Positions 1-42,070 of a stretch of 49,846 nucleotides of DNA are shown here, one piece after another. The notes beneath the pieces are model-generated. The model worked only from the letters and a program-made list of their open reading frames with translations, was not told where the DNA came from and did not search any database. A program made the translations under genes and the position numbers. The first letter of the stretch is position 1. Each line of letters opens with the position of its first letter. Source of the stretch: a virus; IMG/VR virus record IMGVR_UViG_3300035010_000006, positions 1 through 49,846 of that record; one strand, written 5' to 3'.

Positions 1-309
1 ATGGAGAACCGGATCAAGGAATGCCAGCTCGATCTGTTCGCAGCCCGCGCCTCGGCCGCCACCATGCGCGCCAACCAGCTCCGCCTCTGGTTCGCCTCCA
101 TGACCTATGTTGTGCTCTGCGCGCTCCGCCGCATCGGCCTCGCGCACACCCAGTTCGCAGAGGCCACCCGCGGCAGGTTGCGTCTGGCCTTGATCGGCGC
201 CCAGGTCCGACGCTCCGTCCGGCGCATCGCCATCGCCATGGCGTCGGGCCACCCCTTCCAGGACGAGTTCGCCCTCGCCCATGCGCGATTGGCCGCCGCG
301 GCGCCCTGA
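1..309 (+). CDS. IS1380-family transposase, C-terminal fragment
   Basis: The protein matches the end of IS1380-family DDE transposases as I know them: the opening MENRIKECQLDLF and the block MRANQLRLWFASM are hallmarks of the family's C-terminus, followed by an Arg-rich tail that ends in the usual way. The first codon is an internal methionine and the gene runs off the left edge of the window, so the catalytic core is not visible. It marks the right side of an insertion sequence lying upstream of the Argonaute-like gene. Whether the full element is intact cannot be seen here. Confidence 0.8.
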   Translation: MENRIKECQLDLFAARASAATMRANQLRLWFASMTYVVLCALRRIGLAHTQFAEATRGRLRLALIGAQVRRSVRRIAIAMASGHPFQDEFALAHARLAAAAP

Positions 310-698: not shown

Positions 699-3600
699 AT
701 GCCCTCGAGACCAAGCGCCATGTCATCGTCGCCTTCGGACGCGAGTGCCGTCCCGTCGCCTCGCGCGATCTATGATGATCCGCAGGCGCACCTCGCTTTC
801 ATTAGCGCAGCGACCGACGAGGCGTGCGAGGGGCAGCACTTTGACCGCAAGGAAGTCCCGCGACCGCGACAAGGCAACGATGGATGCGCACCTTCTGATG
901 TCAAGAAGATCAAAGAGATTGTGCAGGAGACGGTGTCCGCCTTCTCCAACGCGAGCGGCGGCGTTCTTGTCCTCGGCGTTTCGAAGGCGGGCGAGTTGCT
1001 CGGCGTGGACCACCTGAGCGAGAGCCAGCTCAACGACATCCTACGCCTGGATCATCTGCTGGTCGGACACAACTGCGCCACGCGGATGGCCGACGTGAAG
1101 GGGCCGCACGGACCGGCAGTCAAACTTGCCCTCTTCCACGCACGGCCACCGGAACGCACCATTTGCGAGGAACTCGGCGGTGCCCGACGCGCCTGGGTTC
1201 GCTCGGGACGACAGAACCTCCCGCTCGTCGGCCTCCCGCGCGAGCAACTCGAGCGCGACCGTCGGGTCGTCGACCTGGGATCGCGCGAAGCCTGTCCGTT
1301 CGACATACGGGAACTGGACGACGGTGTCTTCCGTGAGTTCGCCTCGGGGAGAACGAACGGCTCCGCACCGCTCGACCCGACAGATTTACTATACCAGGTC
1401 GGTGCAACACTGCGCGACGACCAGGGCCGCTTCACGCTGAGCCACTCGGGGCTGCTCTTTTTCGCGGCGAACCCGCAGCGGATCCTCCCGCATGCCTATA
1501 TCCGCCTCATGCGCTTCGGCGTCCCGATAGCTGAGCGCGACCGACAGCGCTTGCCGGACGCCCAGCGTGACTTTAGCGGCCCCGTAACAAAGCAAATCCA
1601 GGATCTGAGGGCCTTCATCGCCGAGTCCGCATTTTTTAAGACGTATCAGATCCGAGAGACAGCCGGGGGTTTTCGGGAAGAACCCGAGCTACCTCCGATC
1701 GCCGTTGATGAAGCCATCGTCAACGCGGTCGTGCACCGCGATTACGCGGTAACACTGCCTATCGAATGCGAAAAATACACCGATGCCCTGGTCGTACGCA
1801 GTCCCGGGCCCATCCTTCAGCCCCGCAACGTCCCAGAGCGATTCTCCTTGCGCGATGTCCGACTGGACCATTTGCCACGCAACCCGAGGCTAGTGGATTG
1901 GCTCCGCTCGGTACGTGATGCGAAGGGAAGCCCGTTCATCCAGGCACGCCGCGAAGGTACGACCCGAATGCTGGCAGAGATGCAGGCGCTCGGCCTGCCT
2001 GCCCCCGAGTACTCGTCGGGGCCGGTCCTCACGGAGGTTGTGCTCCAAAGCGACGCGCCGCGGCGGGAGGCCTCGTTTGCCAAGGCGGCCGCGGGGCGAG
2101 CGCCCGCGCCCATCACGGAGCACACTAATCTGTTTCCGCTGACCTGCCGCACGCTGGACCTTGCTCCCGATAGTCGTCGCCGCGAAGCCATTCAGGCGCT
2201 CAAAGACAAGTTGCGGGCATCCGGCTGGTTCATAGACGTGGCACGGTTCGGCGAGGTGATCGCCCACCGCCGCGGCTCAGAAATTACGGCCCCCGAAGCA
2301 GTGTCCCGCATCGTGCGCATCTACCCAGCCTGCGCGTTCCAAATCCGTGCTTATGGCTGCCACGCCTACCTGGCCATCGATCCCACGGCCGTCGTGCAGA
2401 GCGTCATGACCCTCCCGACCGCGCTCCGCTCGTTCGATGCGGGTAGACTAGCAGGTCTCTCTGCCTACGCTGATTGTGGACCTGATTTGGGAGGATGGCA
2501 GCGCGTGCGTCTTGTCGCACCTGCTCCGGATCTCTCGCGCGTTCTGCTGACCAGCGAGCCAAGCCGCGAGGAGGTTGTGCCGTCGTCCCGCGTCATTCCG
2601 AAGCTGCCGAGAGTTTTCATTGAGGAAGCCCTGCGGCAAGGCGGTTTGACCTATGATCTCACGCGCGAGGAGCGCCGTGCTCTTCCCGGTGCAACGGGCG
2701 GTGCGGCGCGCGCTCGCGCGGCTCAAACGGCCGATATCGCCACGTACCTGGCGCAAGACGTCTTTCCGCTCCTGATCGCCGGCGGAGAAGTGGTCCTGTC
2801 ACTCGATGTGATGACGCTCTCGCCCAGACCAGACGGTCCCCACACCATGCGTGTGGAGGGCCTCCGTGAACCTGAAGTGGCGTTCGGCGGAGAACATGCC
2901 AGCCCGGACATTCGAGACGGTATCGCCCGTCACGGCTCCTACGGGCGCGACCGGCGGGAAATCGAAATTGTGCCGGTCTGCGCCCCAGAGCACGTGGAGG
3001 GAATGAGGGCGCTGATCCAACGCATCCAGGCAGGGCGCTTCAAGTATCGCGGTGCAGAGAAGACGTTTAGCGCGCGACTGACCTACCGTGCGATTATGCC
3101 CGTTGCACCCGAGTTGGCTGGGTCGGAATGCGAACGCCTGCTTGCCGAGCACCCAGACTGGCGAGGCGCAACAGACCTACCACGCATCTTCCTGGTGCAC
3201 TGTCCCGAAGCTGGCAGGGCAGCCGACGACGAGACCGGTCCCTACTACACCGTAAAGCGGGTACTGCTTGAGGCAGGCGTGCCGTGCCAAATGGTCGACA
3301 CGCCTACGCTCCAGAACCCGGACTACAAGGACCTGAACCTGGCGCTCAATATCGTCGCGAAGTGCGGGGTCGTGCCCTGGGTCCTTCCGCAATCGATGCC
3401 AGACGCCGACTTCTTCATCGGTCTGTCCCACACCCAGAGTCGCCAAGGCGGCCCCGCCTCGCGTCAGATGGGCTTCGCCAACGTGTTCGACGAGTTCGGC
3501 CGATGGAGATTCTACTCCGGTGGAACCCAGGCTTTCTCCTACGAGGCGCGCGCCCAGCATTACGGCGCCCTCGTCCGGGACACGCTTGGGCGCCTGAACC

Positions 3601-4124
3601 TCCGCGACGACCCATCCGTCGTTTTCCATACATCGGCGAAGTTTTCGCGCGACGACCGCGACGCGGTGCTCCGCGCTGCGCGAGCAGTTCGACCGCGAGG
3701 GACTTTCGTCTTCGTCTGGATCAACACGCAACATCACGTGAGGCTCTACGATGACCGCCCAGAGACGGACGGAAGTCTTGCACGAGGTCGCTACGCTGTC
3801 GCGTCGCCGAATCAGGCTTATCTGTCAACGACGGGTTACAATCCGTACCGCCGGTCTCTCGGCGCCCCCCGTGCGCTGGAACTGAACGTGCGAGTAGAGC
3901 GCCCGCCCGGGGTACCTGCGGGTCCGCCCGACCTCAGGGCCGCGGCGGTGCAGATTCTAAGCCTGACTAAGCTGAACTGGGCGTCAAGCGACGCCCTGTG
4001 CGCCGAACCAATCACGACCAAATACGCGGGGGACATCGCTTACTTGACGGCCGCGTTCCTGAGACAGGGTGGCTCATCCTTCGTGCTTCATCCTGTTCTG
4101 GAGCGCACGCCTTGGTTTCTGTAG
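699..4124 (+). CDS. AlbA_2/Schlafen-ATPase-Argonaute fusion protein (nuclease-dead PIWI)
   Basis: A 1141-residue fusion. Residues ~30-170 form an AlbA_2 (Schlafen-like) domain, with E44-x4-D49-x-K51 and NASGGVLVLGV. Residues ~200-450 resemble the ATPase-like part of AlbA_2 proteins, with an N-box (EAIVNAVVHRDY, 338-349) and RSPGPI. Residues ~470-720 look like Argonaute N/L1/L2 (APAZ-like). The MID begins after GLREPEVAFG and holds Y849, K853, Q864 and K888, the spacing of a YK-type 5'-phosphate pocket; AKCGVVPWVL is typical. In PIWI, S910 (FIGLS) and S979 (FHTSAKF) replace the first and third catalytic Asp, so cleavage is unlikely. The end, LTKLNWASSDALCAEPIT, is a standard PIWI C-terminus. 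By analogy with short Argonaute systems, guide-directed target recognition may switch on the N-terminal effector; that is inference. ATG 720 is an alternative start. GC is lower than in the phage genes (one counted line, 38 of 60). Confidence 0.85.
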   Translation: MPSRPSAMSSSPSDASAVPSPRAIYDDPQAHLAFISAATDEACEGQHFDRKEVPRPRQGNDGCAPSDVKKIKEIVQETVSAFSNASGGVLVLGVSKAGELLGVDHLSESQLNDILRLDHLLVGHNCATRMADVKGPHGPAVKLALFHARPPERTICEELGGARRAWVRSGRQNLPLVGLPREQLERDRRVVDLGSREACPFDIRELDDGVFREFASGRTNGSAPLDPTDLLYQVGATLRDDQGRFTLSHSGLLFFAANPQRILPHAYIRLMRFGVPIAERDRQRLPDAQRDFSGPVTKQIQDLRAFIAESAFFKTYQIRETAGGFREEPELPPIAVDEAIVNAVVHRDYAVTLPIECEKYTDALVVRSPGPILQPRNVPERFSLRDVRLDHLPRNPRLVDWLRSVRDAKGSPFIQARREGTTRMLAEMQALGLPAPEYSSGPVLTEVVLQSDAPRREASFAKAAAGRAPAPITEHTNLFPLTCRTLDLAPDSRRREAIQALKDKLRASGWFIDVARFGEVIAHRRGSEITAPEAVSRIVRIYPACAFQIRAYGCHAYLAIDPTAVVQSVMTLPTALRSFDAGRLAGLSAYADCGPDLGGWQRVRLVAPAPDLSRVLLTSEPSREEVVPSSRVIPKLPRVFIEEALRQGGLTYDLTREERRALPGATGGAARARAAQTADIATYLAQDVFPLLIAGGEVVLSLDVMTLSPRPDGPHTMRVEGLREPEVAFGGEHASPDIRDGIARHGSYGRDRREIEIVPVCAPEHVEGMRALIQRIQAGRFKYRGAEKTFSARLTYRAIMPVAPELAGSECERLLAEHPDWRGATDLPRIFLVHCPEAGRAADDETGPYYTVKRVLLEAGVPCQMVDTPTLQNPDYKDLNLALNIVAKCGVVPWVLPQSMPDADFFIGLSHTQSRQGGPASRQMGFANVFDEFGRWRFYSGGTQAFSYEARAQHYGALVRDTLGRLNLRDDPSVVFHTSAKFSRDDRDAVLRAARAVRPRGTFVFVWINTQHHVRLYDDRPETDGSLARGRYAVASPNQAYLSTTGYNPYRRSLGAPRALELNVRVERPPGVPAGPPDLRAAAVQILSLTKLNWASSDALCAEPITTKYAGDIAYLTAAFLRQGGSSFVLHPVLERTPWFL

Positions 4125-4206
4125 GCCCCTCGAAGGTGCATGGCCATGAACGGCAGCATCTTCGATTCAGAGTCTCCTGGCACACAAGAAGAGTCTTTCC
4201 GCTCCT

Positions 4207-4581
4207 CTATAAAAGACGTCCCGATTGTAGTCGCCAATCGGTAGGGAAAGGTCGCAACAAGTCGGAAAGGCCCATAGCGGTAGGCTGCCTGCCGTCAAGG
4301 ATCGCTTCCACGAGGACGGGCGCGAGCAAGGTCAGGCGGAGAACGCGCGAGACATAGGACGAGTTGATCTTCTCGGCCGCGGCAAGCTCGCTGATCGTGG
4401 CGAACCGCCCCGACTCTAGCATCCGCCGCCACCGGAACGCCCGCGCCACTGCCTTGATGAGTGTGATGTCCTGCCGGCGCTCCAGCGCCAGCACGCCGGG
4501 CGTGACCATCGCCTTCCGCCCGCCCCGCGGCTTCACACGAAGCGGGATGACCACCGTGAGGGTCTGCGTCGCCTCACTCAT
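4207..4581 (-). CDS. Recombinase-associated HTH protein
   Basis: 124 residues, starting MSEATQTLTVVIP. The ATG lies inside the ATGA that ends the recombinase gene (4-bp overlap), which fixes the start. Residues ~65-110 contain a ParB/KorB-like helix-turn-helix segment (ISELAAAEKINSSYVSRVLR) followed by LAPVLVEAILDGRQP, the usual ending of small proteins encoded after serine recombinases of this type. A role in DNA binding or control of recombination is inferred from that company. It is the last gene of the four-gene minus-strand cassette, and its stop lies 83 bp from the end of the Argonaute-like gene, so the two genes converge. Confidence 0.75.
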   Translation of the reverse strand: MSEATQTLTVVIPLRVKPRGGRKAMVTPGVLALERRQDITLIKAVARAFRWRRMLESGRFATISELAAAEKINSSYVSRVLRLTLLAPVLVEAILDGRQPTAMGLSDLLRPFPTDWRLQSGRLL

Positions 4582-5930
4582 GCTGCCGCCCTCCCGGCCT
4601 CGGGCTCTCGGCCGGCAAGATCCCGCACCAGGCTGCCGAGCCCGTCCAGCCGCAGCCGTACCGCGGCGCCCTCGGCCCGGACGTCGACGCGGTCTACCAG
4701 CAGCCTCACGATGCGCGTCCGCTCGGCGGGAAAGAGCTCGTCCCACAGAGGCTCAATCCGCTCCAGCGCCAGCAGCACCTCCTGCTCAGTGACCTCCGGC
4801 GCCGTCGCGCGCGCCGCCCGCCAGGTGCCGACCACCATCTCGGGCTGCCGCAGCAGCGTGCGGACCTGCGCGACCACCGCCGCCTCGATTTCGCCGGCCG
4901 GCAGCCGCGCGATCGCCGGCCGCTCCGTCGCGCCGCCCTTCAGCACCGCCTGGCTGACATAGTAGCGGTACATCTGCCCGCCCCGGCCGCGGCTGTGGTT
5001 CGGCGACATGGCGCGGCCATCGCTGTCGAAGATCAGCCCGCGCAGGAGCGGCGCGGTGGTGTTCCGCGTCCGGTTGACCCGCACCCGCGGGCTGACCTGC
5101 AGGACGGAGTGCACCGCGTCCCACTGAGCCTGGGTGACGATGGCGTCGTGCTCGCCGGGATAGGCCGTGCCCTTGTGCACCGCCTCGCCGAGGTACACGC
5201 GGTTGCTGAGGATGCGGTAGACGTCGCTCTTGGTGAGCGGCCGGCCCCGCTTCGTCGTGGCGCCCTCGGCGCGCAGCATCTGCACCAGCCGCGTGCAGGA
5301 CTCCATCTCGACGAAGCCGGTGAAGATCCGCCGCACCAGAACCGCCTCGGCGTCGTTGATAACCAGCTTGCGCTCGCGCACGTCGTAGCCGAGCGGCACA
5401 TAGCCGCCCATCCACAGGCCGCGCTTGCGCGACGCCGCCACCTTGTCGCGGATCCGCTCGCCAATGACCTCTCTTTCAAATTGAGCAAAGCTGAGCAGGA
5501 TGTTCAGCGTCAGCCGGCCCATGCTGGTGGTGGTGTTGAACGACTGAGTGACAGACACAAAGGTCACGTAGTTCGCGTCGAACACCTCGACCAGCTTTGT
5601 GAAATCCACCAGCGAGCGGCTGAGGCGATCGATCTTGTAGACCACAACAACATCGACCAGCCCCTCCTGGATGTCAGCGACGAGGCGCTTCAAGGCGGGG
5701 CGCTCTAACGTCCCGCCAGAGATGCCACCATCGTCGTAGCGCTCGCGCACCAGCACCCAGCCCTCGGCGCGCTGGCTGGCGATGAAGGCCTCACAGGCCT
5801 CGCGCTGGGCGTCGAGGGAGTTGAACTCCATGTCGAGGCCTTCCTCGCTCGACTTCCGGGTATAGACCGCACAGCGTAGCTTCCGCACGGTCGCTGGCGT
5901 CGCGCCGGCCTGCTTCGTGTCCCGCTTCAT
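4578..5930 (-). CDS. Large serine recombinase
   Basis: 450 residues. The N-terminal resolvase domain has the catalytic motif AVYTRKSSEEG with nucleophile S27, then YDDGGISGG and the KIDRLSRS block. The recombinase domain (~190-300) holds GYDVRERKLVINDAEA and YRILSNRVYLGEAVHKG. The zinc-ribbon cysteines usual in large serine recombinases are absent: the segment reads LIFDSDGRAMSPNHS where relatives have CxxC, a variant I associate with this DUF2924-linked subfamily. The start ATG at 5930 overlaps the DUF2924 stop by 4 bp. It is the only integrase-like gene in the window, so it may integrate the prophage, or this may be a separate mobile cassette. It should catalyse site-specific DNA strand exchange through a 5'-phosphoserine link. 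Confidence 0.92.
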   Translation of the reverse strand: MKRDTKQAGATPATVRKLRCAVYTRKSSEEGLDMEFNSLDAQREACEAFIASQRAEGWVLVRERYDDGGISGGTLERPALKRLVADIQEGLVDVVVVYKIDRLSRSLVDFTKLVEVFDANYVTFVSVTQSFNTTTSMGRLTLNILLSFAQFEREVIGERIRDKVAASRKRGLWMGGYVPLGYDVRERKLVINDAEAVLVRRIFTGFVEMESCTRLVQMLRAEGATTKRGRPLTKSDVYRILSNRVYLGEAVHKGTAYPGEHDAIVTQAQWDAVHSVLQVSPRVRVNRTRNTTAPLLRGLIFDSDGRAMSPNHSRGRGGQMYRYYVSQAVLKGGATERPAIARLPAGEIEAAVVAQVRTLLRQPEMVVGTWRAARATAPEVTEQEVLLALERIEPLWDELFPAERTRIVRLLVDRVDVRAEGAAVRLRLDGLGSLVRDLAGREPEAGRAAA

Positions 5931-6427
5931 GCAGCGCTCCGGCTCGGGCGCAGCCCGAAGAACACCCGCCCGCTCCAGCGCGTGCCGGTGATCGCGCGCG
6001 CGATGGCGGAAAGCGACTGGTAGGGCTGGCCCCCGTACTCGTAGCCGGCGCGCGTGACGGTCACCACGTGCTCGACGCCCTGGTACTCGCGGATCAGCTG
6101 TGTCCCGGCGATCGGCTTGTCGTCGCCGCGCATGCGGCGAACGGTGACCTTCCCGCCGTCGAGCTGCTCGCCGAGCGCCTCGAGGCGGGCCAGCGTCTCG
6201 GGCTTCAGGCCGCCATAGGCGAGCTCCTGGACGCGATAGGCCAAGCGGCTTTCCAGGAAGCGCCGGTTGTAGGGCGGCGGCTCGGTGCCGAAGAGCTCCC
6301 GCCACTGCTGCTTCAGCGCCGGCGTGGCGGCGGTCTTCAGGGCGGCAAGCCGGCCGAGCACGTCGGCGGGCGGGATTGCCGGCGCCGTGAAGGTCGGCGC
6401 GGCCTGGGTCTTTGTCTTCCTGGTCAT
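5927..6427 (-). CDS. DUF2924 family protein
   Basis: 166 residues. The features match DUF2924: WRELFGTEPPPYNRRFLESRLAYR near residues 42-65, then LIREYQGVEHVVTV and GYEYGGQPYQSLSAIARAITGTRWSG. It ends in the recombinase start (ATGA overlap at 5927-5930) and begins in the stop of the small upstream gene (6424-6427), so the genes are translationally coupled. DUF2924 genes repeatedly sit before serine recombinases in alphaproteobacterial phages. The biochemical role is unknown; a recombination accessory or DNA-binding role is a guess from context. Confidence 0.88.
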   Translation of the reverse strand: MTRKTKTQAAPTFTAPAIPPADVLGRLAALKTAATPALKQQWRELFGTEPPPYNRRFLESRLAYRVQELAYGGLKPETLARLEALGEQLDGGKVTVRRMRGDDKPIAGTQLIREYQGVEHVVTVTRAGYEYGGQPYQSLSAIARAITGTRWSGRVFFGLRPSRSAA

Positions 6428-7980: not shown

Positions 7981-9058
7981 TGCCGTGCCTGGCGCTGCGA
8001 TCGATCGGCGCGACTGGACGGCCCGGTTGGGTGCGGAGTTCCCCGTGGCGCAGAGGTTCCTGCGCGCGACGGGACGCCGGGTCACGGCGATCGACTGTCC
8101 CTCCCCGGGCGGCGAGGGCTGTCCGCGCGCGGTGATCAGGACGCCAGGCGGCGTGCTACGCGCCGTGTGCCGGTCTGCGACGGGGCGATGCGATCCGCTC
8201 GACCTGCAGCCCGAGGACACCGATGTCCTGCAGGTGGACTTCGTCCGTCTGCGGCAGGCGCTGGCCGCGGCGTTCGAAGTCCAGATGGCCGCCGCGCCTC
8301 CGACGTCCAGCCGTGTCGCCCGGCTGGGTGAGCACGCCATCGCCGCTGGCGTCGCCGCCCCGGTGATGCTCCTCGTGCCCGGTCCGATGGGTGGCATCCA
8401 ATTCGACGAGCTCCGCGAAGGCGGGCTCAGTAGCGAGCGCGCGGTCCTGCTGGTGCCGACCGCGGCATCTCTGCCGACGTCGCTGCGCACCCGCCTGTCA
8501 GAGCAGGGACACCAGGTGCTGTCGCTCAGCGACATCATTCTCGTTGAGCACGGCGGCGGGCTGCGGCTTGCCCAGCCTGTTGATGTCCTGGTCCACGATG
8601 TGCGTGCGGCGCTCGAGGCCCGCCTCGGAGCTGCGCCGGCCGGTCCGCGCGTCGCCCTTCCGCCGGGCACGACCTGGGCACAGGTGACGCTGCGCTGCAC
8701 CAGCACCGAGACCGTCATCTGCACGGCCCCCGGTGTCTCACGGCAGATGGATCCCGGCGAGTTCGACATGCGCAGCGCCAAGAACGCGAAGCCAGTCGCC
8801 GCCTGGACCTTCTTCCTGCTGCTGGCGATGAACGGCGGCGTCCTGAAGATCGACAGCAGCACCGTTGCGCCGCGCGTGCGGAAGCAGAAGGAAGCCCTTT
8901 CCCGCCACCTGCAGGACACCTTTCGGATGGAGGCAGACCCCATCATCTGGGACGCGAGCCAGCAGGCTTACGTGGCGGCCTTCGTCGCGCGTGATGAGCG
9001 CCCAAAGCGCGAGCGTGAGCAATGGCTGCGGGACCTCGCGGAACGACGGCGCCGGTGA
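7940..9058 (+). CDS. Unrecognised protein, second of an early gene pair
   Basis: 372 residues from ATG 7940 (MTMKPLPLFWNAL); a second ATG at 7946 is equally possible. No known domain is clear in the first two thirds. The C-terminal ~110 residues (AWTFFLLLAMNGGVLKIDS, then a basic helical segment RVRKQKEALSRHLQDTF) look like a winged-helix DNA-binding region, which would suit a regulator; this is inference. It overlaps the preceding gene by 41 bp. Its stop codon lies inside the palindrome at 9051-9070. Confidence 0.7.
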   Translation: MTMKPLPLFWNALDAVPGAAIDRRDWTARLGAEFPVAQRFLRATGRRVTAIDCPSPGGEGCPRAVIRTPGGVLRAVCRSATGRCDPLDLQPEDTDVLQVDFVRLRQALAAAFEVQMAAAPPTSSRVARLGEHAIAAGVAAPVMLLVPGPMGGIQFDELREGGLSSERAVLLVPTAASLPTSLRTRLSEQGHQVLSLSDIILVEHGGGLRLAQPVDVLVHDVRAALEARLGAAPAGPRVALPPGTTWAQVTLRCTSTETVICTAPGVSRQMDPGEFDMRSAKNAKPVAAWTFFLLLAMNGGVLKIDSSTVAPRVRKQKEALSRHLQDTFRMEADPIIWDASQQAYVAAFVARDERPKREREQWLRDLAERRRR

Positions 9059-9070
9059 ATTTTCACCGGC
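9051..9070. promoter_or_regulatory. 20-bp palindrome, candidate operator (copy 1)
   Basis: GCCGGTGAA-TT-TTCACCGGC is a perfect inverted repeat with 9-bp arms, overlapping the stop of the preceding gene. A diverged copy starts exactly 120 bp further on, at 9171. Both lie upstream of the sigma factor gene at 9239, so they may be binding sites for an early regulator. A transcription-terminating hairpin is less likely because no T-run follows. Confidence 0.4.
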
Positions 9071-9123
9071 CGCTCTCCCGCCATCTGCACTTTTTTCTCC
9101 GCTGACGGCGCCATGAATCCCCT

Positions 9124-9143
9124 GGGCTTCTCCGCAGAAGCCC
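9124..9143 (+). other. Hairpin in the sigma factor leader
   Basis: GGGCTTCT-CCGC-AGAAGCCC forms an 8-bp stem with a 4-nt loop, between the two GGTGAATTTTC repeats. No T-run follows, so it is not a standard terminator. It could act as an attenuator or an RNA-stability element. Confidence 0.3.
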
Positions 9144-9170
9144 CATGCCGGCCCGTGCCACCACTGCCTC

Positions 9171-9190
9171 CCGGGTGAATTTTCGCCGGT
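9171..9190. promoter_or_regulatory. Candidate operator (copy 2)
   Basis: CCGGGTGAATTTTCGCCGGT shares the core GGTGAATTTTC-CCGG with the palindrome at 9051 but is a weaker inverted repeat. It lies 49 bp before the sigma factor start. The exact 120-bp spacing between copies is notable but may be chance. Confidence 0.35.
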
Positions 9191-9238
9191 CGCCATCGAT
9201 CGGGCCGCGAGCCCGTCCTCGATCGACGGCGACCACCC

Positions 9239-9832
9239 ATGGAGCAGACCACCCGGGACGCGGTGATTGCACCCCGCACCCTCAAGCACATCCGCAGCAC
9301 GGCGAAGCGCCTGGCCCGCAGCGGCCGCATCCGCGGCATGGATGCCGAGGACATTGCGCAGGACCTCTTCCTCGATCTCTGGCGTCGGAGCCCGGCCTTC
9401 GACCCGAGCCGGGCGAGCTTCCCGACCTTTGCTGACCGGATCATCGCGCACCGCGCGGCCAGCCTGACCGCCCAGACGCAGCGGGCGCAGATCGAGCGGC
9501 GCGAAATCCGCATCGACGATCCTGTCGAGGGTGCGGACGGCTGCACCTTGGCCGACATCCTTCCGGATCCGGCTGCGCCGGACGAGCTGGATCACGGCCT
9601 CTCCCTCGACCTCCGCCGCTTCATCGAGAGCCTGTCGCCCGCCCTCCAGCGCTGCTGCGCGATCCTGTCGGAGCCGAACATCCGCTCGGCTGCGGCGCAG
9701 GCGGGGACGCATCGCTCGTCCCTCTACGAGAACGCGCGCCGTCTCCGGAAGCGCGCCGAGGAGTCCGGTCTGCGGATCTACCTGGCCGGACCCCGACAGA
9801 TGTTGACGCCCGCCGGTAGGTGCCCGGCATGA
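9239..9832 (+). CDS. ECF-like RNA polymerase sigma factor
   Basis: 197 residues. Region 2 is seen at ~30-80: MDAEDIAQDLFLDLWRRSP, then SFPTFADRIIAHRA, the usual acidic and aromatic pattern that recognises the -10 element. A region 4-like C-terminal part covers ~120-175 (LSPALQRCCAILSE and AAAQAGTHRSSLYENARRLRKR, a helix-turn-helix). Such small sigma factors occur in alphaproteobacterial prophages and probably redirect host polymerase to phage promoters. The following gene overlaps by 4 bp. Candidate operators lie just upstream. Confidence 0.8.
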   Translation: MEQTTRDAVIAPRTLKHIRSTAKRLARSGRIRGMDAEDIAQDLFLDLWRRSPAFDPSRASFPTFADRIIAHRAASLTAQTQRAQIERREIRIDDPVEGADGCTLADILPDPAAPDELDHGLSLDLRRFIESLSPALQRCCAILSEPNIRSAAAQAGTHRSSLYENARRLRKRAEESGLRIYLAGPRQMLTPAGRCPA

Positions 9833-10071
9833 GCAGGCACCATGACATTGGAACGCAGCGGAGCGGAGGGCTGGTTCGCCACCTGGACCAGCAGGCCCTC
9901 GCGAACCACTGGGGCCTGTCGATCCGGACCCTTGAGCGCTGGCGTTACCTGAACCAGGGGCCCGCCTTCCTGAAATTGGGCGGCCGCATCCTCTACCGCC
10001 TCGAGGACGTCGAGGCCTTCGAGGCGGCGCAGGCGCGCGATCCGGCCGCGTCGGCAAGGGCGACCGCGTGA
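9829..10071 (+). CDS. Helix-turn-helix excisionase/AlpA-like protein
   Basis: 80 residues. The core matches the HTH_17/excisionase fold: LANHWGLSIRTLERWRYLNQ, then GPAFLKLGGRILYRLEDVEAFEA (about residues 26-65). ATG 9829 overlaps the sigma factor stop (ATGA); a GTG at 9820 is possible. It probably binds DNA, either as a recombination directionality factor for the serine recombinase or as a transcription regulator. The 3' end shares one base with the next start (TGATG). Confidence 0.8.
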   Translation: MSRHHDIGTQRSGGLVRHLDQQALANHWGLSIRTLERWRYLNQGPAFLKLGGRILYRLEDVEAFEAAQARDPAASARATA

Positions 10072-10790
10072 TGGCCGCGCTGGTCCGCTACGAGCAGGCC
10101 CGCACGGCGCTGGCAGAATGCGCCCGTATCGATGAGGCCTCCGAGATCCGCGACAAGGCCGCGGCGCTCGCCGCCTATGCCCGCCAGCGCGACGACCGGG
10201 ACCTCGAGGTCTGGGTGCGCGAAATTCACCTGCGCGCCTGCGTCCGCATCGGCGAGCTGAGCCGCGAGCTGGAACGTGCCGAGCCTGGCGGAGCGGGCGG
10301 CGGCTCGAAGTTCCCAGCGGTGGGAACTTCGAAGGCCCAGGCGCTGGCCGACGCCGGCATCTCGACCAGCACGGCCCACCGCTACGAGGAGCTCGCTGGC
10401 GGGCGCGAGGAACAGGCGCAGGCCGCGGGCCGCGCCGCGATGGAGGCCTACTTCGCGCAGTCCCGCGCAGAAGGCGCGCCGCCGACCATGGCCGGCCTGC
10501 GCGGCGCCGTCCGCGACGCCGTCCAGGCCACGCTCGGCCCGCTGCCGACCCGCACCAAGCGTCCTGCCCCGCCGGCGGACCAGCCGAAGGTCGCGCCCAT
10601 CGGCGCCGACTGGGCCGATTTCACCGCCGCTGTCCTCACCGTCGCGACCCTGCCCGTCGACTTCGCCTCGCTCGCGGGTCGGGCCCCACGCGCCCTGCTC
10701 GACGACCTGCGCGGCGAGGCCCGCGAGGCGCTGCGGCGGCTGCCGCTCTGGATCAACGCCCTGGAGAACGAACATGACCACGCCGCGTGA
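10071..10790 (+). CDS. Conserved phage protein, N-terminal charged helical region
   Basis: 239 residues. The opening pattern (LVRYEQARTALAECARIDEA, then RDKAAALAAYARQRDDRDLE and REIHLRACVRIGELSREL) matches a family common in prophages of Alphaproteobacteria and Actinobacteria, with a short HTH-like segment after it (AQALADAGISTSTAHRYEEL, ~88-107). Function is not established; a DNA-binding or replication-control role is plausible from the HTH. It overlaps the next gene by 17 bp. Confidence 0.75.
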   Translation: MAALVRYEQARTALAECARIDEASEIRDKAAALAAYARQRDDRDLEVWVREIHLRACVRIGELSRELERAEPGGAGGGSKFPAVGTSKAQALADAGISTSTAHRYEELAGGREEQAQAAGRAAMEAYFAQSRAEGAPPTMAGLRGAVRDAVQATLGPLPTRTKRPAPPADQPKVAPIGADWADFTAAVLTVATLPVDFASLAGRAPRALLDDLRGEAREALRRLPLWINALENEHDHAA

Positions 10791-21134: not shown

Positions 21135-22604
21135 ATGACGCTCCCCTGGATGGCAGCGAAGATCCTGCTGCGCCCGGTGGCGGAGCTGCGCGCGCATCCC
21201 GGCAACGCGCGCGTGCACGGCGCCGCACAGATCGAGCAGATCAAGGCCAGCATGCTGGCCTTCGGCTTCACGGTGCCGCTGCTGGTGGACGAGGCCGGCG
21301 TGCTGATCGCCGGCCATGGCCGGCTTGAGGCCGCCGTGGCGCTCGGCATCGAGAAGGTGCCGACGATCGTGCTGCGGCATCTGTCTGCGGCGCAGAAGGA
21401 GGCGCTCCGGCTCGCCGACAATCGCATCGCGGAGAACGCGACCTGGGATGGGGCGCTGCTGCGCGATGCGCTCGCCGCAGCGCAGGCGGCGCCTGACCTC
21501 GACCTGGCGGCGCTCGGCTTCTCGGCCGCGGAGCTCGACGACATCCTCGCGGCGGCTGGAGATGCCGTGTCCGACGGCGACGCGCCCGAGGCTCTGTCGG
21601 CGCCCGCGGTCCAGGGGGGCGGGGACGGCGCGGCGGAGACGGAGGCGGCGGCGGAGCAGGATGATCCGGCCGATGCCGAACCCGACCCGCCGCGCCACGC
21701 CGTCACCCGGCCGGGCGACCTCTGGACCCTCGGCGAGCACCGCCTGCTCTGCGGCGACAGCACCGATGCGGCGTCGGTCGCCCGAGTGATGGGCGAGGAC
21801 CGCGCCACGCTTCTCTTCACCAGCCCGCCTTACGGGAACCAGCGCGACTACACCACCGGCGGCGTCTCCGATTGGGATGCGCTGATGCGCGGTGTGTTCC
21901 AGCACCTGCCGGCGATCCTTACCGGCGACGGCCAGGTGCTGGTGAACCTCGGCCTGATCCACCGCGAGGGCGAGTGGCAGCCCTATTGGCAGGGCTGGCT
22001 CGACTGGATGCGGGCGCAGGGCTGGCGGCGTTTCGGGCTCTACGCCTGGGACCAGGGCCCCGGCCTGCCAGGAGACTGGAACGGCCGCCTCGCTCCAGCT
22101 TTTGAGCTGGTCTTCCACTTCAACCGCGAGGCCCGCGCGCCGAACAAGATCGTGCCCTGCAAATGGGCTGGCACGCCTAACAAGGGCAGCGGGCTGCGCG
22201 CCGCGGACGGCGAGGTGAAGGCCTACACCCACATCGGCCTGCCGGTGCAGGAGATGCGGATCCCGGACAGCGTGCTGCGCATCACCCGCCACAAGGGCCG
22301 CGGTATCGAGACCGAGCACCCTGCGGTGTTCCCGGTCGCGCTGCCCGAGTTCCTGATGCGCGCCTACACGGACGAGGGCGAGGTCGTGTTCGAGCCTTTC
22401 TCGGGGAGCGGGACCACCATCCTGGCCGGCCAGCGCACGAGCCGCCGCGTCCGCGCCATTGAGCTCGCGCCGGCCTATGTCGACCTCGCGATCGCCCGCT
22501 GGCGGACGCTGTATCCCGACCTGCCGGTGACGCTCGCCGACGATGGCCGCGACTTCGACGTGGTAGCGGCCGCCCGAGGGGAGGTGCTGCCCGATGCAGC
22601 CTGA
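21135..22604 (+). CDS. ParB-domain DNA methyltransferase
   Basis: 489 residues. Residues ~12-100 are a ParB/Sulfiredoxin-like domain (HPGNARVHGAAQIEQIKASM, LIAGHGRLEAAVALG). After an acidic linker comes an N-4/N-6 methylase with TSPPYGNQ (motif IV, catalytic SPPY) before FEPFSGSGTTILAGQ (motif I, SAM binding), a beta-class order. SPPY fits N4-cytosine or N6-adenine targets. Such fusions are common in phages and may protect phage DNA from host restriction. No restriction enzyme gene is visible. It overlaps the next methyltransferase by 11 bp. Confidence 0.9.
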   Translation: MTLPWMAAKILLRPVAELRAHPGNARVHGAAQIEQIKASMLAFGFTVPLLVDEAGVLIAGHGRLEAAVALGIEKVPTIVLRHLSAAQKEALRLADNRIAENATWDGALLRDALAAAQAAPDLDLAALGFSAAELDDILAAAGDAVSDGDAPEALSAPAVQGGGDGAAETEAAAEQDDPADAEPDPPRHAVTRPGDLWTLGEHRLLCGDSTDAASVARVMGEDRATLLFTSPPYGNQRDYTTGGVSDWDALMRGVFQHLPAILTGDGQVLVNLGLIHREGEWQPYWQGWLDWMRAQGWRRFGLYAWDQGPGLPGDWNGRLAPAFELVFHFNREARAPNKIVPCKWAGTPNKGSGLRAADGEVKAYTHIGLPVQEMRIPDSVLRITRHKGRGIETEHPAVFPVALPEFLMRAYTDEGEVVFEPFSGSGTTILAGQRTSRRVRAIELAPAYVDLAIARWRTLYPDLPVTLADDGRDFDVVAAARGEVLPDAA

Positions 22605-23849
22605 CCTGCAGGTGACCACCGTGGCCGTGGCCGCGCTGGCCCCCTACGCCGAGAACGCGCGGACGCACTCCCCCGACCAGGTCGCGCAGATCGCCGCCTC
22701 AATCGCCGAGTTCGGCTTCGTGAACCCGGTGCTGGTGGACGCCGCCGGCGTGCTGGTCGCGGGCCACGGGCGGGTCATGGCCGCGAAGCGCCTCGGCATG
22801 GCCGCGGCCCGGCGATCCGGCTCGCCCACCTGACCGAGGCGCAGGCGCGGGTGCTGCGCCTGGCCGACAACCAGATCGCGCTCAACTCCGGCTGGGACGA
22901 GGCCCTGCTCGCCGCCGAGATCGCGCGCATCCGCGACGAGGCAGTGGTCGATCTCGACGTCCTCGGCTTCTCGGGCATGGAGCTCGACCGGCTGCTGGCC
23001 GCGGCGGATGCCGGCCTCGAGGACAACGGCGACGACGCGCCGGACCCGCCGGCCGTGCCGGTCACCCGCGCTGGCGACCTATGGCGCTGCGGCGACCACC
23101 GCCTGCTCTGCGGCGACGCCACCAAGCTGGCCGACGTGCAGCGCGCCCTCGGCGCCGACCGCCTCGCCGACATGGCCTTCACGGACCCGCCCTACAACGT
23201 CGCCTACCAGGGCGGCACCGCGGCCAGGATGACCATCGCCAACGATGCGCTCGGCTCCGGCTTCCTCGACTTCCTCCGACCTGCGCTGGCTAACCTACTC
23301 TCCGTGACGAAGGGCGCCTGCTACGTCTGCATGTCCTCGTCCGAGTGGCCGACGCTGCACCGCGCCTGGCAGGAGGCGGGCGGGAAGTGGTCGAGCACCA
23401 TCATCTGGGCGAAGAACACCTTCGCGCTCGGCCGTGCCGACTACCACCAGCAGTTCGAGGCGATGCTCTACGGCTGGAAGGCCGGTGCGCAGCACTACTG
23501 GTGCGGCGCGCGGGACCAGGGGAACGTCTGGCACTTCGACAAGCCGGCCAGGAACGACCTGCACCCCACCATGAAGCCGGTGGCGCTGGTCGAGCGCGCG
23601 ATCCGCAACAGCAGCAAGCAGCGCGACACCGTGCTGGACCCGTTCGGCGGCTCCGGCACGACGATGATCGCGGCGGAGCGGACCGGACGGCGCGCGGTGC
23701 TGCTCGAACTCGACCCGGCCTATGCCGACGTGATCGTCCGGCGTTGGCAGGAGGCGACGGGCGGGACGGCGGTGCTCGACGGCGAGGACCGCACCTTCGA
23801 CGACATCGCTGCGGCTCGAGATGTCAGGACCACCACGGCGATTGCGTGA
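22594..23849 (+). pseudogene. Second ParB-domain DNA methyltransferase, frameshifted
   Basis: The first part (22594-22833) encodes the ParB-like domain (YAENARTHSPDQVAQIAASI, VAGHGRVMAAKRLGMA) and then runs into a stop after nonsense residues. The second part, open from at least 22851 to 23849, continues with VLRLADNQIALNSGWDEALL and a methylase holding TDPPYN (motif IV) and LDPFGGSGTT (motif I). Joining them needs one extra base near 22807-22812, where GCGGCCCGG probably read GCGGTCCCGG (A-V-P-A-I-R-L-A-H-L). DPPY is typical of N6-adenine enzymes. The methylase part might still be made from an internal start. Confidence 0.8.
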
Positions 23850-40660: not shown

Positions 40661-42070
40661 TCAGGCCCAGAAGGGGAGGTACCGGGCGAACTTCCGCGAA
40701 CCGCCGACCTTCTCGTCCGGCTTGATCAGCCCCGCCTCGACGGTGGCCGCAATGATCTGCGACGTTATGGCCGCCTTCGATTCGGGGAGGTTGAAGCGCT
40801 CCCGGAGCGATTGGTTCGTCATGCGCTCGGACATCACCCACTTCAGCGCAGCGTGCTGGTAGCAAGCGCGAACGCGATCCTCGCGATCCATCGCGTCGAA
40901 GGGGCGATGACCGAAAATCGTGATGACCGTGCGCCGATGCCCGACCCGGAAGTCCGGCGCCGGCAGTTGGTACACTTCCGCGGCATGCACGACCCTGTCG
41001 ATCCCGCTACCCTTCTCCTCGCAGATACCGAGCCGTCGCATGAGATCAGCCAGGCGCTCATTGCGCGACTGATACCCGTCGATGAAGCGAGCCACGTCCA
41101 CGATGGGCTCGCCAGGGTTCGAGATCTCCAGCCGATCGGCATAGATCTCGACCATGACCGACGCGCCGCCCATCTCGAGGTCCTGGTGGATCAGGGCATT
41201 CGCCACCAGCTCGCGAATCACCACCTCCGGGACAAGCTTCACCTCGGTGCGCAGTGCGTCCTTGATGACCTCATTCTGGGGAAGCTGCCCCATCACGAAG
41301 CGGACCAGTCCCTGGAAGCCAGCCGCGTACCCTCGTGCACCGAGCTGGTCGAGCTTTGTCTCCAGCTTTGACGTACCGCTGTAGACGACGACCCGAGGCG
41401 CCTTGCGCGCGACATCCGGGAAGTCTGAAAGCTGCTTCGCCAGCATCAATGCGCCGAGGCGGCGCACGGCGTATCCTTCTGGCGTCTCGTCGGCCAGCCG
41501 CTCTCTGACGAGGCGCTCGATGACGCCGGATCGATCGGTTGGGTAGGGCAATTTCAGAAGCTCGAAGAACGCCTGCGTGTCGAGCAGCTCCACGACCGCC
41601 TGCGCATCGAGCCCGATCCGTGCGTGCTGCTCCAACCAATCGGGCTGACCCTCCGCGAATATCCGCCGCAGGTGATCCTCGCTCATCGGCACGAGCGATT
41701 CACCCGCGCGCATCAGGTAGGCGCCGTCCAAGTGGTAGGCCGTCCCGCGCGGACGCGACGGGATGTGGAAGACAAGCACCCGCCCGTCCGGATGGCTCAC
41801 TTCTTCGATCTCGACTCGGAATCCAACGGCTTTGAACAGACGCTCTGCCGCTACCACGATGTCGAGAAATGCCCGTGTGCCGACAACGGGCCGCGGTGGC
41901 GCATCGGCGATGCCAAGCAAAAGGTGCCCGCCGCCCTCGTTTGCGATGGCGACGCAGTACCGGTTGAGCTTGTCCGTGTCGTACTGAGTCTTGGCTTCCT
42001 TGAACTCGAGGCGCTGATGCTCCGTCGAGGCCTGGCGCCAGAGATCGATCTGCTGCGGCGTCGTCGGCAT
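40661..42070 (-). CDS. AlbA_2/Schlafen-type ATP-binding protein (cargo gene)
   Basis: 469 residues on the minus strand. The AlbA_2 domain (~10-130) carries E17, E22 (LEFKEAK) and D56 (LLLGIAD), spaced like the acidic triad of Schlafen-type RNases. The ATPase-like half has the N-box VIRELVANALIHQDLE, the DRLEISNPGEP strand, and a glycine loop (EEKGSGIDRVVHAA). A winged-helix part ends the protein. Proteins of this kind act as regulators or defence effectors. Lower GC than the phage genes (one counted line, 36 of 60) and opposite orientation suggest cargo. Its architecture equals the first ~450 residues of the Argonaute fusion at 699. Confidence 0.85.
   Translation of the reverse strand: MPTTPQQIDLWRQASTEHQRLEFKEAKTQYDTDKLNRYCVAIANEGGGHLLLGIADAPPRPVVGTRAFLDIVVAAERLFKAVGFRVEIEEVSHPDGRVLVFHIPSRPRGTAYHLDGAYLMRAGESLVPMSEDHLRRIFAEGQPDWLEQHARIGLDAQAVVELLDTQAFFELLKLPYPTDRSGVIERLVRERLADETPEGYAVRRLGALMLAKQLSDFPDVARKAPRVVVYSGTSKLETKLDQLGARGYAAGFQGLVRFVMGQLPQNEVIKDALRTEVKLVPEVVIRELVANALIHQDLEMGGASVMVEIYADRLEISNPGEPIVDVARFIDGYQSRNERLADLMRRLGICEEKGSGIDRVVHAAEVYQLPAPDFRVGHRRTVITIFGHRPFDAMDREDRVRACYQHAALKWVMSERMTNQSLRERFNLPESKAAITSQIIAATVEAGLIKPDEKVGGSRKFARYLPFWA

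Follow-up and report, generated by a model that had tools for sequence, protein, structure and literature searches.

The window analysed here is the whole 49,846-nt stretch of IMG/VR virus record IMGVR_UViG_3300035010_000006. Near its left end, on the plus strand, lies a gene (699-4124; ATG at 699, stop ending at 4124) for a 1141-residue protein that carries Schlafen (AlbA_2), GHKL and Argonaute parts in a single chain. On one side is the C-terminal end of a DDE_Tnp_1_4 transposase (1-309, plus strand; Pfam E 7.1e-23) at the left edge of the record, a neighbour outside the system. Adjoining the other side is a neighbouring recombination module (4207-6427, minus strand), consisting of a small protein of unknown family, a serine recombinase and DUF2924. 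Translation may in fact begin at ATG 720 or at a point further in, because the relatives start near residue 20; inspection of ATG 699 and ATG 720 by eye revealed no clear ribosome-binding site at either. The PADLOC 'pAgo' profile PDLC02394 matched full length (residues 19-1141 to positions 2-1121 of 1121; 1397.6 bits), and an NCBIfam search of the protein gave only matches far below cut-off. Full-length relatives, 47-51% identical, are found on the complete plasmid 3 of Rubrobacter radiotolerans (50.6% over 98%) and in two cyanobacterial genomes, a MAG and a second genome of the same phylum. As the full-length fusion is present in these three other records, an assembly artefact joining two genes is ruled out, and by this comparison the 699-4124 frame is a genuine single gene. 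Scans of viral_contigs found the family in 0 of 2, 1 of 31 and 1 of 50 candidate stretches, the last two being one record. The preliminary description of a single chain with AlbA_2, an ATPase-type domain, MID and PIWI was borne out by Pfam, by PDLC02394 and by PDB matches to EcAgo and RsAgo. An AF2 model of the full-length protein, built from five sequences, was poor (mean pLDDT 50.1), with the N-terminal half worst and unusable.

The AlbA_2/Schlafen core domain spans residues about 30-185 (786-1253, plus strand), its limits beyond the Pfam match being taken from family alignments. An AlbA_2 match within residues 30-170 had been set beforehand as a check, and Pfam PF04326 (SLFN_AlbA_2) was found at residues 62-112 with 30.7 bits against a curated cut-off of 25.3. 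Upstream of this match is a putative nuclease motif, E44-x4-D49-x-K51 (828-851, plus strand), with the spacing of SLFN11 E209/E214/K216. The correspondence is by spacing only, as HMMER alignments to Schlafens begin past the motif. E44, D49 and K51 are invariant in all six family rows of the alignment (L005, a stand-alone relative, plus five fusion proteins, of which one is partial). When six other stand-alone proteins were added, including the one at 40661-42070 of the window, E44 was kept in 12/12 rows, D or E at position 49 in 12/12 and K51 in 11/12; a Mesorhizobium row without an AlbA_2 part was excluded from these counts. The aspartate that replaces SLFN11 E214 in the family also occurs in three of the six other stand-alone rows. 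An acid at position 95/96 is present in all six of those rows versus none of the six family rows. The SLFN11 nuclease is abolished by E209A, E214A and K216A and not by D252A, according to the portion of PMC9482658 consulted, and therefore the missing third acid need not disable a nuclease. We propose that the residues equivalent to the essential E, E and K of SLFN11 are kept as E44, D49 and K51, an apparent correspondence that is new here.

The GHKL/HATPase_c_4 region covers residues about 225-450 (1371-2048, plus strand). Pfam PF13749 (HATPase_c_4) matched residues 355-448 with 30.2 bits (curated cut-off, 26). The region has an N-box, E338-x3-N342-A343, in which E338 and N342 are kept, and H346-R347-D348; its glycine box reads E-G-T and resembles the E-G-V of some free relatives. 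The earlier AlbA_2-ATPase label stands as far as the HATPase_c_4 family match goes, but ATP binding cannot be called from sequence, and 'ATPase' is used here as a family label, with ATP binding or hydrolysis putative. Residues 228-417 also match the SIR2 protein of a Mesorhizobium short-pAgo operon (L027; BLASTP E 2e-9), in which the HATPase_c_4 segment between the SIR2 and APAZ parts scored 21.8 bits, below the cut-off of 26. A related ATPase segment placed between the SIR2 and APAZ parts of such an operon is new here, and this position speaks for a role in passing on a signal more than for that of a final effector.

Both N-terminal domains also exist without an Argonaute. The 469-residue protein at 40661-42070, whose likeness to the N-terminal half had been remarked on from the outset, indeed has the same two Pfam families and no Argonaute part. 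In one of the genomes that carry the fusion (G001) the effector half alone forms L005, a protein of 556 residues with 732 bits to PDLC02394 positions 1-451. The occurrence of this Schlafen-ATPase module without Argonaute in a fusion-carrying genome is new here. Annotation names of the stand-alone relatives include helicase-like and helix-turn-helix proteins. A comparison of 456 ORFs of at least 60 residues from five loci (E up to 1e-4) gave cross-matches only for the Argonaute gene and frames overlapping it. Within the flanks compared at these five loci, among them 698 bases on the left in the window and about 130 bases to the right of the partial gene in L008, a conserved partner gene is ruled out, a finding likewise new here.

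Between the effector half and MID, residues about 474-715 (2118-2843, plus strand) are assigned from an AF2 model and structure matches to Argonaute N-L1-(perhaps reduced PAZ)-L2. Residues 456-742 folded alone gave a mean pLDDT of 71.2, and this model aligned with RsAgo 5awh over 249 residues (Z 11.9, rmsd 6.5) and with Hili 7yfx over 199 residues (Z 12.8, rmsd 3.5). Among the 50 matches listed, 174-249 residues aligned with full Argonautes versus 128-138 with SPARDA and 145-170 with AfAgo-N; these last comparators are APAZ or N-L1-L2-only proteins, with 128-170 residues aligned overall. A sequence profile of the region found two matches in the PDB, both with E about 1. The PADLOC class II profile (724 positions) aligns to two relatives from position 109 or 117 to its end and to the window protein only from 288. 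The middle, at first described as APAZ-like, may go beyond an APAZ: the structural alignment of the model leans to N-L1-reduced PAZ-L2, a placement that is not settled.

The MID domain comprises residues about 742-895 (2922-3383, plus strand). Y849, K853, Q864 and K888 are invariant in 4/4 full-length members, and Y849-x3-K853 aligns with the Y-x3-K of RsAgo, which has a like MID motif, so that the YK-type guide 5' motif is present by the criterion given in the part of PMC6299218 used here. The PIWI domain (residues about 896-1141; 3384-4121, plus strand) is predicted to be inactive. S910, S979 and G1111 occupy positions that are D in the active-type long pAgos of the alignment, and which we take to be the PIWI catalytic positions. 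With these three alignable aspartates substituted, the Argonaute part is probably inactive. A Pfam search of the protein with E up to 1 gave no Piwi match, nor any to a SIR2, TIR or DREN/DUF4365-type effector. A PDB sequence search with the C-terminal part found EcAgo (E 5.9e-10) and RsAgo (E 1.4e-8 to 1.6e-8).

The placement of the Argonaute half depends on the sampling. In a tree of 33 rows it groups with EcAgo, RsAgo, L052, L026 and the AfAgo-like L024 at 96/88, and the 12 short pAgos are united at 100/100 to its exclusion. A clade with the short pAgos was not rejected (p-AU 0.107), and a position inside long-B without L024 gave p-AU 0.067. For this tree 14 of 31 extracted cyanobacterial Argonautes were hand-picked, their short, long-A or long-B labels being assigned here from frame length and profile scores; of the 17 dropped, some were near-duplicates, two were copies of members of this family, one had an interrupted frame and others were left out for size. 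Trees of 16 and 19 rows lean weakly to the short pAgos (72/56 and 52/6.9) without resolving the question. The next-best PADLOC profile, PDLC02436, scored 218.5 bits on the window protein and 343 bits on a short pAgo. The best-sampled tree would therefore place MID-PIWI deep on the long-B side, while the smaller trees and some profiles lean short, and the matter is not settled. Read simply as a fused SPARxA-type short pAgo, the protein is disfavoured by the effector search, the neighbour test and the 33-row tree. Speaking against rejecting that reading are the PIWI motifs TGYxP and SLTKLNW, which look short-like, the SPARTA short pAgo that is the best PDB match of the family profile, and the slight preference of the smaller trees for the short pAgos.

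The fusion architecture is not new. It had been put forward as a different kind of system, but it is already in print and in PADLOC. Passages of Ryazansky 2018 (PMC6299218) describe several long-B pAgos that carry a fused AlbA_2, which is called DNA-binding there, and a 2023 review (PMC10573157, in the portion consulted) mentions long pAgos fused to 'Schlafen-like ATPases'; the long-B fusions and the full-length profile PDLC02394 represent the same kind of fusion as the window protein. The nuclease residues, the ATPase part and the SIR2-system relative do not appear in the excerpts of the Ryazansky discussion. Our literature searches found no characterised example or functional test of this fusion, in agreement with the earlier statement that no characterised single-chain example was known. 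In the BPAN and BPAS systems (EcAgo-AgaN and GbAgo-AgaS; PMC10620215, in part) an inactive Argonaute sensor is likewise joined to a separate killing activity, and AgaN is a nuclease activated when the long-B EcAgo recognises ssDNA with an RNA guide; there the effector is encoded separately, whereas the Schlafen-type effector of the window protein is in the same chain. Plasmids with a CloDF13 origin are the trigger in PMC10620215. SPARTA, SPARSA and SPARDA also combine an effector with an Argonaute N-terminal region and an inactive MID-PIWI, but the window protein is one chain and lacks their SIR2, TIR or DREN match. The Mesorhizobium system (PADLOC Aga_SIR2-PNTD1-PNTD2 / SIR2-Kinase) has the same order of effector, ATPase segment and Argonaute N-terminal region; its effector is SIR2 where the window protein has AlbA_2, it is split over two proteins, and its pAgo lies inside the short clade. 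Human SLFN11 and the tRNA-cleaving Schlafens (PMC9482658, in part) share the E-x4-E/D-x-K pattern; the window protein lacks the helicase part of SLFN11 and has GHKL and Argonaute instead.

The domain content, the kept guide-binding and Schlafen-type residues and the loss of three PIWI aspartates, together with the lack of a shared partner gene among the loci compared and the effector half that occurs without Argonaute, are the basis on which we lean, with some reserve, toward a self-contained, nucleic-acid-guided immune switch in which an inactive long-B-like Argonaute and a Schlafen nuclease share one chain. The Argonaute half would load a short 5'-phosphorylated guide, probably RNA by analogy with RsAgo and EcAgo, and would recognise invading DNA without being able to cut it. 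On target binding the chain would change its conformation or its assembly, and the GHKL domain would relay this change to the N-terminal Schlafen/AlbA_2 domain, which, likeliest as a dimer or higher assembly, would become a metal-dependent nuclease. Its substrate would more likely be tRNA or other RNA than DNA, and the cell would shut down or die ahead of the invader's spread. Here we infer the guide and target types, the activation, the substrate, the role of ATP and the defence phenotype. More tentatively, and with greater doubt than hope, one might see in the protein the first guide-programmed Schlafen ribonuclease, in which sensing of invader DNA by the inactive Argonaute trips a GHKL switch, akin to one of SIR2-pAgo systems, that frees a (t)RNase and translation stops.

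It is unlikely, though worth weighing, that the Schlafen/AlbA_2 half merely binds nucleic acid, in guide loading or target holding, so that DNA is silenced or blocked by a protein with no enzymatic effector built in, or host nucleases are recruited. This would agree with the DNA-binding label in the Ryazansky excerpts and with the family's lack of the acid at position 95/96, but the invariant E-x4-D-x-K (6/6) and the dispensable D252 of SLFN11 count against it, as do the free-standing effector half and the toxic effectors through which the long-B systems studied act, as far as the consulted part of PMC10620215 goes. An ATPase-like domain as the main working part, making the protein an Argonaute-steered regulator or remodeller, for example in transcription or plasmid maintenance, seems improbable. 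The helicase-like and helix-turn-helix names among those of the stand-alone relatives, and the one full-length member on a plasmid, would fit such a role; the related segment between SIR2 and APAZ suggests transmission instead. If the guided nuclease switch is correct, a Schlafen-type effector joins the Argonaute immune systems in an easily moved one-gene format. The related ATPase segment in a SIR2 system points to a way of transmission that different effectors may have in common. The ribonuclease version would link animal antiviral Schlafen nucleases and Argonaute immunity in one molecule, with SIR2 or Schlafen modules exchanged before an ATPase-Argonaute scaffold. Whether AlbA_2 on these Argonautes is a nuclease and not a DNA-binding domain becomes a testable question.

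Who owns the gene is a separate matter, compatible with the guided nuclease switch. Genes for portal, capsid, tape-measure and tail proteins occur in the window record, and the Argonaute gene adjoins the prophage recombination module. Even so, we think it rather unlikely that the phage itself carries the gene as a means of fighting rival phages or plasmids (superinfection immunity), as opposed to the gene being the host's own and lying next to a prophage. Four virus records reached via the 40661-42070 protein include the module in two cases and the Argonaute in none; as these records, at 15-45 kb, may be fragmentary, this absence is weak evidence. One of these records stops exactly at the stop codon of the module's last gene, and the Argonaute gene is flanked on its other side by the transposase end. 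The Argonaute gene has a GC3 of 0.72, whereas five phage genes have 0.89-0.95 and a sixth gene, that at 40661-42070, has 0.81.

The frame at 699-4124 (+) encodes 1141 amino acids, in which the SLFN_AlbA_2 and HATPase_c_4 models of Pfam each score over their curated cut-off and the Piwi model has no Pfam match at E up to 1. Residues 19-1141 match a PADLOC pAgo profile (PDLC02394, 1397.6 bits) and the C-terminal part matched EcAgo and RsAgo in sequence searches, bearing out the single-chain AlbA_2-ATPase-Argonaute protein proposed in the preliminary description. The start codon is unsure: relatives have their N-termini close to residue 20, and 720 is where the following ATG in this frame lies. 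Relatives were found in several collections. In genome_contigs, one of 25 candidate stretches, from a cyanobacterial MAG, encodes a relative (47% identity), and 2 of 386 genomes from its phylum, the MAG included, have the full-length form (E up to 1e-60). Among 72,556 plasmid records 70 matched, and only Rubrobacter radiotolerans plasmid 3, at 50.6% identity, reached a coverage of at least 80%; of the 30 plasmid matches listed, the remaining 29 match just one half. Sixteen of 50,697 phage records matched, none with coverage over 80%. One more virus record has an N-terminal part of the fusion (833 aa, 38%); its frame (8004-10636) stops just short of the MID motif and ~130 bases from the end of the record, where truncation, a frameshift or the record edge are all possible. 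Domain order is identical in all four full-length fusion proteins, which rules out an assembly join of two genes, the artefact considered in the preliminary description. The fusion is real, conserved and already catalogued, and is apparently uncharacterised: no paper characterising such a fusion was found in the literature covered, which excludes most subscription journals. MID-PIWI is its more conserved region (66.8% identity to the Rubrobacter relative), compared with 42-46% to five relatives for the effector half (AlbA_2 plus HATPase_c_4) and 34% and 33% for the N-L1-PAZ-L2 region, to L002 and to the partial fusion, respectively.

In the AlbA_2 domain, an E-x4-D-x-K motif (E44, D49 and K51) is invariant in all six family rows, comprising five fusions, one of them partial, and a stand-alone effector half, L005. 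When six more stand-alone proteins are included, the window's own at 40661-42070 among them, E44 and an acid at 49 are each found in 12 of 12 rows, K51 being kept in 11. At position 95 or 96, which we take to be the site of the third acid of SLFN, none of the six family rows has an acid and all six other stand-alone rows do. According to PMC9482658, E209, E214 and K216 of SLFN11 are essential and D252A is slightly more active; our pairing of E44, D49 and K51 with the SLFN11 residues goes by their spacing, and the HMMER alignments obtained with Schlafens start past the motif. As judged from sequence, the AlbA_2 site appears altered and possibly nuclease-competent. The HATPase_c_4 domain, which is GHKL-type, retains its N-box; "ATPase" is here a family label taken from sequence, and ATP binding a candidate property that the fusion may have.

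In the Argonaute half, the guide motif (Y849-x3-K853, Q864 and K888) is invariant in all four full-length proteins. S910, S979 and G1111 stand in place of D in the long pAgos of the alignment, at positions that we presume to be catalytic there, so slicing by this PIWI would not be expected. AF2 modelled the whole chain poorly (mean pLDDT 50.1), apart from ~490-700 and parts of PIWI, and from residue 475 onward the model is still Argonaute-like (Foldseek best match RsAgo, E 5.6e-18, with a TM-score of only 0.22; VIA Z about 15 against Argonautes). Folded alone, 456-742 reached a pLDDT of 71.2. Among the 50 matches listed, this model aligned over 174-249 residues with full Argonautes (Hili, 199 residues, Z 12.8, rmsd 3.5; RsAgo, 249 residues, Z 11.9, rmsd 6.5), 145-170 with AfAgo-N (Z 10.0-11.2) and 128-138 with SPARDA, where a Z difference within 1 is a tie and shorter chains necessarily align over less, so that the lengths lean to a reduced PAZ in the modelled region and are no proof of one. 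The earlier label "APAZ-like" for this middle part is probably too narrow, given this lean.

Placement of the family among pAgos depended on the MID-PIWI tree. With 33 rows, it joined long-B pAgos and an AfAgo-like protein (96/88) and 12 short pAgos formed a 100/100 clade without it; the alternatives had p-AU values of 0.107 (with short pAgos) and 0.067 (with long-B minus the AfAgo-like protein). The 16-row tree placed it weakly on the short side (72/56), and the 19-row tree favoured neither side firmly (52/6.9 for joining short pAgos, p-AU 0.473 for joining long-B). A link to short pAgos also draws on the family profile's first PDB match, a SPARTA pAgo, on PIWI motifs such as SLTKLNW that look alike in the two, and on PDLC02436, the fusion's next-best PADLOC profile and a strong match to a short pAgo as well. 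We regard the family as branching off deeply, with long-B the likelier side. In published work, AlbA_2 is placed on several long-B pAgos and termed DNA-binding (PMC6299218), some long pAgo genes carry fused Schlafen-like ATPases (PMC10573157), and in long-B EcAgo 5'-P RNA leads to ssDNA recognition and an activated nuclease (PMC10620215). The best reading of the fusion is a one-protein guide-triggered nuclease switch, which we consider moderately probable; confidence is kept lower because the smaller trees lean weakly to short pAgos and the SLFN11 match is one of spacing only. As the architecture has already been published, its interest is moderate; the conservation of nuclease-type residues and the kinship of its ATPase segment with that of a SIR2 system add to it. 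PMC12839542 reports that Schlafen RNases having a minimal histidine kinase and a wHTH lie near BREX, and it cites a preprint about how bacterial Schlafens take part in defence against phages; PMC12205087 gives a filament mechanism for SPARDA.

Parts of the fusion also occur elsewhere. The genome G001 encodes a full fusion plus the separate 556-aa L005 protein (1201-2871, -), which lacks an Argonaute part and whose residues 7-457 match fusion profile positions 1-451 (732 bits). Directly upstream is a 360-aa ORF (2946-4028, -), membrane-spanning by eye and with no Pfam match; the two are possibly another sensor-effector pair. On a Mesorhizobium plasmid, a SIR2 protein adjoins a short pAgo (802-4831) and has, between SIR2 and an APAZ-type part, an HATPase_c_4-like segment that scores 21.8 bits where the cut-off is 26 and matches fusion residues 228-417 (27%, E 2e-9). 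Residues 562-837 of the SIR2 protein, which match PADLOC REase-PNTD1-PNTD2 profiles (E 1.4e-14), are taken to be APAZ. PADLOC has the names Aga_SIR2-PNTD1-PNTD2 and SIR2-Kinase for such proteins, and SIR2 fused with Schlafen is listed among APAZ proteins in PMC6299218. We infer that the effector, the GHKL segment and the Argonaute scaffold are interchangeable modules. The window's stand-alone AlbA_2-HATPase_c_4 protein (40661-42070, -) is encoded amid phage structural genes, in the opposite orientation to the tape-measure gene, retains E-x4-E-x-K and has best segments 93%, 93%, 87% and 73% identical in four other virus records; it looks like phage-carried cargo.

The window spans an entire IMG/VR virus record and contains portal, capsid, tape-measure and tail genes and phage DNA-metabolism genes. 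On one side of the Ago gene is a transposase end (1-309); on the other is a recombination module made up of DUF2924, a serine recombinase and an unassigned small protein (4207-6427, -). The search covered five virus records, of which four were found through the 40661-42070 protein and one has the partial Ago. The module is common to two of the five, and one record ends at the exact stop of the module's last gene. Ago is present in part in the fifth record and in none of the other four, which may be fragments and one of which gave only a weak match in the ATPase domain. The Ago gene has a GC of 0.639 and a GC3 of 0.72, with GC3 at 0.89-0.95 in five phage genes and 0.81 in 40661-42070. Judging by this distribution, the record end and the GC3, the Ago gene seems to have arrived later and to sit next to the prophage, perhaps outside it. 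Among 456 ORFs (at least 60 aa) of five Ago loci (10.6-17.5 kb each, the window cut at 12 kb with a left flank of only 698 bases), cross-matches at E up to 1e-4 were the Ago gene and overlapping frames, so no constant partner gene was seen there. In another locus, L022 (1921-6359), a piece of the C-terminal end of the recombinase is encoded ~2.6 kb past the intact gene, with a gene for a calcium-repeat protein (RTX-like, by eye) between them. Elsewhere in the window, a ParB-like domain is fused to a DNA methyltransferase (21135-22604), followed by a second protein of the same methyltransferase family (22851-23849).
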